Source: Acidobacteriota bacterium (GTDB lineage Bacteria > Acidobacteriota > Blastocatellia > Pyrinomonadales > Pyrinomonadaceae). From it: a DNA stretch of 32,024 nt. The notes under the pieces are model-generated. The model searched no databases. It saw only the letters and a list, made by a program, of their open reading frames with translations, and was not told the origin of the DNA. Below are positions 21,489 to 24,375 of this stretch, piece after piece. The first letter of the stretch is position 1. Each line of letters opens with the position of its first letter. The DNA lies in contig JAFAOW010000184.1 of assembly GCA_019247455.1 (NCBI GenBank), forward strand, positions 1-32,024, read 5' to 3'. A program made the position numbers and the translations under genes.

Positions 21489-21565
21489 CGGGGCGTAGCA
21501 CAGCCTGGTAGTGCGCACGGTTTGGGACCGTGAGGCCGCAAGTTCGAATCTTGCCGCCCCGACCA
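21489..21565 (+). tRNA. tRNA-Pro (anticodon TGG)
   Basis: This is a 77-nt tRNA with encoded CCA. The acceptor stem CGGGGCG (21489-21495) pairs with CGCCCCG (21555-21561). It has a D-loop with CAGCCTGGTAG, an anticodon stem CACGG/CCGTG with loop TTTGGGA and so anticodon TGG, and a T-arm with GTTCGAATC. The C1-G72 pair and G37 after TGG are standard for bacterial tRNA-Pro. The discriminator is A and the 3' end GACCA. It reads CCA codons and probably other CCN codons. A seven-base inverted repeat (GACCAGC 21561-21567 and GCTGGTC 21580-21586) lets the trailer pair over the 3' end before processing. No terminator is visible between it and the HU gene, so the two may be cotranscribed. Confidence 0.97.
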
Positions 21566-21677: not shown

Positions 21678-21959
21678 ATGGCTCGTATGACTCAATCGGA
21701 GATTATCGGCACGTTGGCGGATTCCTGCGGATGCAAGAAATCGGATGTCAAAGCAATGTTTGACGCCCTTGCGGACCTCGCAACAAAGGAAGTAAAGACG
21801 AATGGCGAGTTTACCGTCCCCGGCTTCGGCAAACTGAAGAAGACGCACCGCAAGGCTCGCGAAGGCCGTAATCCCGCCACCGGCGCTGTCATTCAGATCC
21901 CCGCAAAGACCACTGTCAAATTCTCGATCGGCAAATCGATGAAGGACGCGGTCAGCTAA
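21678..21959 (+). CDS. HU-family DNA-binding protein
   Basis: This is a 93-residue histone-like protein. I chose the ATG at 21678 because it gives a normal HU N-terminus (MARMTQSEIIGTLAD) and has GGAGG 11 nt upstream. The helical dimer base is followed by GEFTVPGFGKLKKTHRKA and the DNA-gripping arm GRNPATGAVIQIPAKTTVKF, which carries the R-N-P tip that intercalates at DNA kinks. The protein should bend and compact DNA as a dimer; HU and IHF cannot be separated from sequence alone. A strong terminator follows the stop. The protein has two Cys in the early helical part (CGC), which is unusual for HU. Confidence 0.93.
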   Translation: MARMTQSEIIGTLADSCGCKKSDVKAMFDALADLATKEVKTNGEFTVPGFGKLKKTHRKAREGRNPATGAVIQIPAKTTVKFSIGKSMKDAVS

Positions 21960-21991: not shown

Positions 21992-22026
21992 GACCGGCAT
22001 ACCTTGTGGTTTTGCCGGTCTTTTTT
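21992..22026 (+). terminator. Rho-independent terminator after the HU gene
   Basis: The stem GACCGGCA/TGCCGGTC (8 bp; 21992-21999 and 22013-22020) contains a further ACC-TTGT-GGT helix and is followed by six T (22021-22026). It is a strong intrinsic terminator 33 nt after the stop. Confidence 0.85.
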
Positions 22027-22257
22027 CATCGTCCGAAAAAAAATGGTGACAAAACAAATGGCCTCTGTTACCATAATATTACAGTTGAATCGACGCCCTC
22101 AGTACCTATTCGGCAGCCGAATGCTGGACGAGTTCTCAACTTACTTTACCCGGCTCCGCGTTATGTTTCATGCGGGATCCGGCAATGATTTGCTCATTGG
22201 AGCAGGTCAAAGCTGTACCGATTAAGGGGCAGAATTTGAAACAAAGGAGAATATAAA
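22027..22257 (+). other. Hairpin-rich leader of the 82-residue gene
   Basis: The 231 nt between the HU terminator and the next GTG carry no ORF that looks real. GTGACA (22046-22051), 17 nt and TACCAT (22069-22074) could be a weak promoter. Downstream are a perfect 15-nt palindrome ATTCGGC-A-GCCGAAT (22108-22122), a longer imperfect hairpin (22150-22182, CCGGCTCC paired with GGATCCGG) and TGCTC-ATTG-GAGCA (22191-22204). AAAGGAGA sits about 9 nt before the GTG. It does not match a riboswitch class I know. Confidence 0.45.
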
Positions 22258-22506
22258 GTGGCAGCAGCTAGACCCATGACCTTGCAGGACAGAGTTCTGC
22301 AGATCGACCATATACAGGCACGCCGGTTCTCAAAATTAACTGGTGACGCCGTCGAGATCGCCGCCGAAGGAATTATTCGCCATCTGAGGGCTTGTTCCCG
22401 GATGGACGTGAATCCCGACGCTTCAGCGGTTCGCGAGATCATTGATGATGCTCTCAACGGAAGGCGGGTATTCGCAGAAACGTCGAATGACCTGCTGGCC
22501 GCGTAA
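22258..22506 (+). CDS. Hypothetical 82-residue protein
   Basis: This gene starts at GTG after a good AAAGGAGA site and encodes 82 residues: a basic/polar start (MAAARPMTLQDRVLQ), then helix-rich sequence (IDHIQARRFSKLTGDAVEIAA), an HLRACSRMD turn and a final amphipathic part with REIIDDALNGRR. It has no signal peptide, TM helix or recognised motif. One Cys is present. The gene is flanked by a structured leader and its own strong terminator, which makes it an independent transcript and argues that it is real. A small nucleic-acid-binding or regulatory protein would fit the charge pattern, but this is a guess and no family can be named. Confidence 0.7.
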   Translation: MAAARPMTLQDRVLQIDHIQARRFSKLTGDAVEIAAEGIIRHLRACSRMDVNPDASAVREIIDDALNGRRVFAETSNDLLAA

Positions 22507-22539: not shown

Positions 22540-22565
22540 GCCCCGCATCGATGCGGGGCTTTTTT
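22540..22565 (+). terminator. Terminator after the 82-residue gene
   Basis: A perfect GC-rich stem GCCCCGCATC/GATGCGGGGC (22540-22559) with six T (22560-22565) lies 33 nt after the stop. The centre closes without unpaired bases, so the real loop would be about four nt. Its T-tract overlaps the stop of the convergent membrane-protein gene. Confidence 0.88.
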
Positions 22566-24375
22566 ATGACCGGAGCCTCAGGCGGTATATACGATACTTC
22601 CCGATCTCCTCGCCTTCCACGCGTTCGTACCACTTGTCTATAACATCGAGACGCTGATCGTTATCAACCCGGATCTTCATAAAGTCGAGCTTAATAGCCC
22701 CTTCCGATCTCGGGTCGAAATTCTTAATGTACGAGTCGTAGGCCTCAGCTGCCGCATCGATCTCGCGATAGGTCAGCGGCTTATAGTCGGCGTTCAGCCG
22801 ATCTGTATGCCGCCCCCAGCCGAAAAGGGCTATGATCGAGACAAAATCACCATGTTTCATCCGATCGGCGAGTTCCTGCTTCGTAACTCCCTCATAAAAC
22901 AAAAGCTGGTAGTATCTCTGCCTACTCTCCTCAGTGGTCTGTCCGGCAAACATCTCCTGGTGCCTGGCCCAAAGTACTGCGACCGGGGCCACCGTGGGCA
23001 GATCATCGGCTTCCATAACGTCGAGGTCTAACACGACGCGCTTATGAATGTTGGGATCCCCGCTAACCATCTCTGTCAGCCTTCGGGCTGTTGGCAGGGC
23101 TTCGTCGCGCGAAACATTAACGTCATCCAGAACCCGGACCGTGTAGTAGCACTCAATGAACCCCCAGAAGGCTGCGACGAATGCTAAACCGGCGGAAAGA
23201 GCGAGGACCCCCTTGAACCGCTTTTCGAACGCCGACCGTAGATAGATCCCCAAGGTCAAAACGAGTGCCAGTCCCGCTACATAGTTCCCGATGAAAACCT
23301 GGTAGTGGATAGGCTGCAAAGACTGCCCCGTGATCACCTGCTGGTTGAAAACCACGATGACCGATAGTGCCAAAGCCCCTGTGAAAATAACCTGCTTATC
23401 AGCGAGAAATGCTTCTTTTAGTACGATTGCCGCCCCCAGCGCTGCCAGCACACAAAATGCGATGATTTCCGGCACTCTTGTCAGATCAGGAGCATGTGTT
23501 ACCACCAGCAGCTGAATATCATCCATCGAATGCGAGCGCCTTGAAAGCAAATATGCGTAGGGAATGAGAGCTGCGAGCGCCCCGGCGGCTACGAAGGCGA
23601 GCGAACGAATATTGCTCCAGACACCTACAGGCCTTACAGCCAATAGAATAAAGCCTAGACAGGCCAGCCACGCTGCAGCCGTGGTCCAAACGTAGAAATA
23701 AGAGAAAACCGCATAGGCAAAACAGGCGATAGCGAACCCGGGAATAAGCCACCTGGATCGGCCGATCCGTGTTACCTCGTCATTTCTCGAGATCATCTTC
23801 CATACAAGGCCGACAAGCCAAAAAAACGCCGGAAAGGCCATTGCGGGGATGTACCTTCGAAATCCAGGGAAATAAGGATAAGAGAATCCGTCGAAAAAGA
23901 TCTCACTTACAGCCCCTTCGCCAGCGAATAAAGCTCCGCCCGCAAGCACAACCAGGCTGCCGGCCATCGCGTACCAGTTGTCCCGGAACATCATTCCGAT
24001 CAGCCAAAAAATCGCCACCGCTGTCAGGAATGCCGCGATGATTCCTGACAAGGTCATCGCCCACGGCGTACCGATCCCCAAGATCCTCGCCGGGATCGCT
24101 ATGTTGTAGGGAGCGGCAAACTGAATAGAGAACAATGACTCTTGCTGCGGGTCTTCACCGGAATCATCGCGGCCCGTGTAGGGATTGTTCTTACGCGGCC
24201 GCCCATCCATCAACGCTCTAACATAGGACGCGTAGGCGACCTCGTCGATGTCATTGTAGGCATAATTGCCGTTCCATTCGGAACCCCGGTTATAGAGGAG
24301 CTTCGCTTGAGGTGCGAAAGAGTAAATGGCAAGAAAAATACCTGCGATGATACCGAACCGCCATTTTATTTTCAT
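22564..24375 (-). CDS. Polytopic membrane protein, GT-C glycosyltransferase-like
   Basis: This is a 603-residue inner-membrane protein. The first TM is at about 8-22, followed by a long extracytoplasmic loop (about 25-90) with YNDIDEVAYASYVRALMDGR. An Asp/Glu pair in the first loop is the hallmark of GT-C enzymes. Some ten hydrophobic segments follow to about 405, with a long extracytoplasmic C-terminal domain (about 415-603). That domain contains VLWARHQEMFAGQTTEESRQ and ends in basic strands. The family is not clear to me; the layout fits a membrane glycosyltransferase or an uncharacterised GT-C relative. The gene stands alone: its end overlaps a terminator T-tract, and the gap upstream separates it from a divergent secreted protein. 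No good ribosome binding site is visible. Confidence 0.75.
   Translation of the reverse strand: MKIKWRFGIIAGIFLAIYSFAPQAKLLYNRGSEWNGNYAYNDIDEVAYASYVRALMDGRPRKNNPYTGRDDSGEDPQQESLFSIQFAAPYNIAIPARILGIGTPWAMTLSGIIAAFLTAVAIFWLIGMMFRDNWYAMAGSLVVLAGGALFAGEGAVSEIFFDGFSYPYFPGFRRYIPAMAFPAFFWLVGLVWKMISRNDEVTRIGRSRWLIPGFAIACFAYAVFSYFYVWTTAAAWLACLGFILLAVRPVGVWSNIRSLAFVAAGALAALIPYAYLLSRRSHSMDDIQLLVVTHAPDLTRVPEIIAFCVLAALGAAIVLKEAFLADKQVIFTGALALSVIVVFNQQVITGQSLQPIHYQVFIGNYVAGLALVLTLGIYLRSAFEKRFKGVLALSAGLAFVAAFWGFIECYYTVRVLDDVNVSRDEALPTARRLTEMVSGDPNIHKRVVLDLDVMEADDLPTVAPVAVLWARHQEMFAGQTTEESRQRYYQLLFYEGVTKQELADRMKHGDFVSIIALFGWGRHTDRLNADYKPLTYREIDAAAEAYDSYIKNFDPRSEGAIKLDFMKIRVDNDQRLDVIDKWYERVEGEEIGKYRIYRLRLRS

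Follow-up and report, generated by a model that had tools for sequence, protein, structure and literature searches.

Within the window, the whole 32,024-nt stretch of Pyrinomonadaceae DNA analyzed here (JAFAOW010000184.1, positions 1 to 32,024), rdgB, tRNA-Pro(TGG), an HU-type gene, a terminator, a leader region, a gene for an 82-residue protein and that gene's own terminator follow one another in this order. In most Pyrinomonadaceae, HU precedes the 82-residue gene in the same orientation, and so does rdgB where the available sequence extends far enough. The features of the locus are as follows.

21489-21565: tRNA-Pro(TGG)
21678-21959: gene for an HU-type DNA-binding protein
21992-22026, + strand: inverted repeat, intrinsic terminator of the upstream HU gene and left border of the unit
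22036-22051, + strand: A-tract (22036-22043) and -35 element GTGACA (22046-22051)
22066-22074, + strand: extended -10 element, TG at 22066-22067 and TACCAT at 22069-22074, with a 17-nt spacer from the -35 element
22083-22088, + strand: AGUUGA, 5' strand of the closing helix P1 (AGUUGA:UCAACU)
22108-22122, + strand: inverted repeat, 15-nt perfect palindrome ATTCGGCAGCCGAAT with 7-nt arms and 1 nt between them
22110-22131, + strand: hairpin P2 at the homologous site (UCG/CGA and CAGC/GCUG), holding box 1 (GCAGC, 22113-22117)
22136-22143, + strand: box 2 (UCAACUUA), homologous to GCAUCUA in clade B; UCAACU within it (22136-22141) forms the 3' side of P1
22150-22182, + strand: hairpin P3 (CCGG/CCGG and CCGCGU/AUGCGG)
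22187-22208, + strand: hairpin P4 (GAUUUGCUC/GAGCAGGUC)
22243-22249, + strand: ribosome-binding site AAAGGAG, 8 nt before the GTG
22258-22506, + strand: gene for the 82-residue family-signature protein, GTG start, predicted four-helix domain
22540-22566, + strand: intrinsic terminator, end of the monocistronic unit

The strong terminator that the original prediction had placed before the leader is indeed there, as a hairpin (21992-22020) with an 8-bp stem, GACCGGCA/TGCCGGTC, followed by a T6 U-run to 22026; of 65 relatives, 39 score for a hairpin with a U-run ahead of the promoter. By eye, both arms of this stem compensate between species, and the loop keeps CUUGUG or CUUGUA, a constancy that hints at some function of the loop besides termination.

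The downstream gene had been described as an orphan, a description that did not survive the comparison: homologues adjoining HU were found in 108 of 119 Pyrinomonadaceae genomes, covering 29 of 29 genera, with identities of 70 to 99 percent in most. The named relatives are Pyrinomonadaceae, including OLB17 of the same genus. A profile search added four lower-scoring relatives, from a different family within the class; their genomic contexts are unrelated and gave no help with function. Copy number and integrity vary in places. One genome (G085) carries two intact copies, L109 and L110; another has a decayed second copy with two stops (G135:C12:29351-29566); and at L036 (G023:C44) promoter and leader are present and the small gene runs across a TGA close to its beginning, reflecting either a broken copy or an assembly error.

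By sequence, the 82-residue protein gave nothing significant against Pfam, NCBIfam, PHROGs or the PDB. AlphaFold2 predicts four helices with a mean pLDDT of 82.6, blocks within residues 11-60 exceeding 90, and searches of the model with Foldseek and VIA-align yielded no fold that stands out and no convincing relative. No recognisable RNA-binding fold emerged from the AlphaFold2 model, Foldseek or VIA-align, an absence that is not evidence against leader binding. Pfam and the fold comparison both return weak matches of the protein (22258-22506) to sigma-70 region 2: the best E value for Pfam Sigma70_r2, which matched 4 of 24 members of the protein family, is 0.036, and VIA-align gave Z scores of 2.4-3.5 to several sigma factors. 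This resemblance is too weak to claim and serves as a lead only.

The A-tract, -35 and extended -10 elements (22036-22074) make up what is, from its sequence, a housekeeping (sigma-A)-type promoter. Its motif, AAAAAAA(G/A)TNGTGACA, about 17 nt and TNTGNTANNAT, is nearly identical at about 65 related loci, which constitute clade A and about half of the Pyrinomonadaceae; clade B is the other half and carries a TATAAT-type promoter at a similar position. In the genomes where it matched, the extended motif occurs only at the small-gene locus. It lies 110 to 215 nt before the GTG in clade A (65 loci) and about 177 nt before it in the window. With a promoter at this position, transcription should start near 22081, which would leave a leader of about 177 nt and not 231. 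The structured leader originally proposed thus stands, whereas its length of about 230 nt does not, the first 50 nt or so being promoter. A start site close to the GTG, named at the outset as an outcome that would speak against a leader, is not what the conserved promoter predicts, as it puts the start about 177 nt upstream. Shortly before the A-tract, six clade A loci (L006, L007, L011, L014, L028 and L055) have a near-palindrome, GAGAAAAAT(N)TCACAA, possibly an activator site; it is absent from the window species.

Folding of the window sequence itself gives moderate support for hairpins: the 231-nt stretch reaches -65.6 kcal/mol against -54.6 kcal/mol for dinucleotide shuffles (z -2.4, 1/200), the z over the approximately 177-nt leader is only -1.7 (60 shuffles), and the mean over 65 leaders is -1.6. 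Stronger support comes from comparing species. Column-wise covariation on plain MAFFT alignments returned noise because loop and linker lengths vary, and we therefore used anchored half-swap tests, in which leaders are anchored on two conserved boxes, every hairpin is divided in two, and the folding energy obtained with both halves from one species is compared with that of halves exchanged between species. For P2 (52 species), own halves averaged -4.54 kcal/mol and swapped halves -3.30 kcal/mol; the corresponding values were -8.50 and -5.40 kcal/mol for P3, the strongest co-evolution signal, and -8.72 and -7.24 kcal/mol for P4. In each case 0 of 5000 permutations reached the observed mean, counts that overstate significance and are not probabilities, as the species are related, with swapping among relatives also diluting the difference. 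The own-minus-swapped differences were -1.26, -3.17 and -1.52 for P2, P3 and P4, compared with -0.2 to -0.3 (P3 -0.21, P4 -0.30) under a composition-matched null in which letters were shuffled within each half so that only composition was shared. In the same test, the hairpins that surround and follow the boxes in clade B also passed, at 9 and 8 of 5000.

For the closing helix P1, 85% of cells are paired across 24 sequences, and P1 and P2 together have 80% of cells paired over 24 leaders against 23-48% with slid partners; conserved primary sequence raises the P1 counts, and compensatory changes there are few and mostly in the outermost pairs. The swap test for P1 (S1:S4) was weak (120/5000). 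Overall, P1 has modest extra support. A P1 analogue in clade B did not rise above permuted partners (518/2000) and was dropped. Taken on this comparative evidence, P2, P3 and P4 are evolutionarily maintained through coordinated changes of their arms. The check suggested with the original prediction, covariation in homologous leaders, thus came out in its favor for P2-P4, its two further hairpins (22150-22182 and 22187-22208) are present, and a lack of hairpin conservation was not what we found.

The perfect 15-nt palindrome fared differently. It is present on the + strand at 22108-22122, as had been noticed, but the importance given to it falls away with its lack of conservation: it occurs in none of the other leaders examined and is confined to the window species, and we rejected it as a key element. 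A loop of 1 nt cannot form in RNA, so the palindrome would instead form a 6-bp stem closed by a 3-nt loop. It occupies the site where relatives form P2, the homologous P2 pairing also being available in the window, and is best seen as a local, species-specific alternative hairpin at that site.

The two boxes used as anchors read GCAAC and UCAACUAA in clade A and GCAUCC and GCAUCUA in clade B, and are set 21-22 nt apart. Of 52 clade A leaders, 39 have a spacing of exactly 21 nt, and all 37 anchored clade B leaders have one of 21 or 22 nt. Part of this constancy comes from how the boxes were picked, since their spacing had to fall within a window of a few nt and, for clade A, 21 was mildly favored; the peak inside that window does not come from the selection. 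The window leader is a weak member, with a box spacing of 23 nt and an E value of 0.002 to a covariance model of P1-P2. The core is CAAC in clade A and CAUC in clade B, and both boxes agree within each clade; a shared core that differs between clades and matches within them means that one partner probably reads both boxes.

These regularities also bear on the main rival to an RNA element, namely that the twin boxes act as DNA, either as an internal ECF-like promoter (-35 GCAAC/GCAUC, -10 CAACUAA/CAUCUAA), which would give a second start about 60-110 nt before the GTG, or as a two-turn direct-repeat operator. The 21-22 nt spacing is fixed in both clades while the intervening sequence changes, and 21 nt equals two helix turns, so that the fixed direct-repeat spacing would also suit a DNA-binding protein and counts against an RNA reading; the joint switch of both boxes from CAAC to CAUC is what one would expect if one protein reads both; and most clade B sequences have TANNNT after box 2. 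Against this stand the covariation of the hairpin arms surrounding and following the boxes, the presence upstream of a better conserved promoter, and the frequency of the two-box motif at other loci, which does not exceed that of controls and leaves a single target; a single target is unusual for a sigma factor. Sigma factors normally also control themselves. On balance we regard boxes acting as DNA as unlikely.

The single target emerged from several searches. A clade A motif search of 15 genomes matched only at the small gene, and a clade B search of 18 genomes found the small gene in most, other matches not exceeding the reversed-pattern control. The P1-P2 covariance model, run on 21 genomes, gave matches with E < 0.01 only at the leader of the small gene and recovered two leaders absent from its training, one of them from a genus outside the model; its sensitivity is limited, divergent clade A leaders and every clade B leader having escaped it. 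As far as these searches reach, the leader element appears dedicated to one gene.

The leader matches no family among the Rfam 15 covariance models; on the window only the tRNA reaches the gathering score, and the leader has no sub-threshold match either. This agrees with the initial remark that no known riboswitch fits, and a known Rfam riboswitch was accordingly set aside. A riboswitch of another kind, with the leader binding a small molecule and the protein answering to that molecule, would explain a long structured leader with several hairpins and short conserved boxes before one gene. We consider it very improbable, given that no Rfam class matches, the conserved core consists of two short boxes only and not of an aptamer-like large core, and no expression platform is common to the leaders. 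Transcription attenuation was rejected, terminator-like sites occurring in only 12 of 65 leaders at scattered positions, with no terminator in common. Leader-peptide control was likewise rejected: 22 of the 65 leaders have no closed ATG upstream ORF, and in the others such ORFs differ in length, none being shared.

The ribosome-binding site called good in the original prediction, AAAGGAG ahead of the GTG at 22258, is confirmed, and a GGAG-type site precedes nearly all homologues. It is moderately open, with a mean probability of being unpaired of 0.55, and no helix sequestering it was found in the leaders. The start codon itself (22258-22260) is GTG in 102 of 107 homologues across 29 genera, and is retained even in genera with quite different following codons. 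In clade A, where codons 2 and 3 encode alanine they are GCA in 62 of 62 and 58 of 59 cases, respectively, alanines deeper in the coding sequence using all four codons. The fixed GTG and the GCA codons suggest that the region constrained at the RNA level extends into the coding start of the 82-residue gene; a simpler possible cause is selection for an easily initiated start region. A pairing of the AGUUGA leader segment with the conserved codons GCAGCU was tried and rejected: it is possible by eye, but one genus has lost the pair, and the start pairs with that segment at a mean of only 0.05.

The strong promoter, a mean folding z of only -1.6 over 65 leaders and the moderately open ribosome-binding site could fit a passive structured 5' UTR, one that stabilises a strongly transcribed mRNA or keeps the start open and has no regulator. 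Such a UTR would have no need for fixed-sequence boxes at fixed spacing, nor for a GTG kept in 102 of 107 homologues, and we doubt that it accounts for the locus.

We favor the reading, at a probability of roughly 0.6, that 22081-22257 is a structured cis-acting leader dedicated to the 82-residue protein, in which a trans-acting factor on the boxes would alter ribosome loading. By comparison among relatives, it draws on the promoter, hairpins P2-P4, the spaced boxes, the ribosome-binding site, the near-invariant GTG and the restriction to a single gene. The leader is probably a new, lineage-specific cis-acting element controlling translation of its own gene. The suggestion of a new regulatory RNA therefore keeps its conserved hairpins and its lack of an Rfam match, and loses the palindrome, the length and the orphan status with which it was put forward. 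In the proposed mechanism, the sigma-A-type promoter would transcribe the leader from near 22081, and P1 and P2 would present the twin boxes to a trans-acting factor, whose presence there would change ribosome loading, giving control of translation or of mRNA stability and not of termination. The element being found only before one gene, the gene's own product is the first suspect and would be the likeliest factor, as with ribosomal protein genes under autogenous control; alternatives are some other protein, a metabolite or a small RNA. Autoregulation by the 82-residue protein, which the original prediction raised as a possibility, would be plausible and fits the restriction of the element to this gene. 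A more specific version, in which the four-helix Pyrinomonadaceae signature protein binds the CAAC/CAUC boxes in its own leader as a new protein-RNA autoregulatory pair, protein and boxes having changed together at the family split and the fixed GUG being part of the control, is more tentative, and we put it forward as a possibility that may well prove wrong.

Elements of this arrangement have precedents. The E. coli genes infC (AUU) and rpsT (UUG) have non-AUG starts under translational feedback. As in their leaders, evolution has retained an unusual start codon before a small protein, but the start here is GUG, a common one, and its role in control may only be surmised. Autogenous leaders are found on the mRNAs of bacterial ribosomal proteins (review: PMC10931766). 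They share with ours a structured leader before the controlled gene, action in cis only, lineage-specific forms and control at the level of translation, the last being proposed here; they differ in that the product here is not a recognised ribosomal protein, no rRNA mimicry was identified, and binding by the product is putative. Comparative genomics has also yielded candidate cis-regulatory motif RNAs, for example a set of 104 candidates (PMC2864571). Like these, our leader shows covariation upstream of one gene family, in one lineage and with no known ligand; unlike them, it has no Rfam 15 match and its associated gene is itself without known function. We thus describe it as a new candidate cis-regulatory leader of a known general type, and do not claim autoregulation.

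Acidobacteriota are abundant soil bacteria, and the literature searched contains almost nothing on their RNA regulation. Here, nearly every member of one family has a gene that lacks an annotated function, and this gene carries its own preserved leader, which has no Rfam family. If the protein binds this leader, the leader would be a direct biochemical handle on the protein, and, if the pairing of protein and boxes is true, two box types over about 100 species would show the co-evolution of a regulator and its target site.
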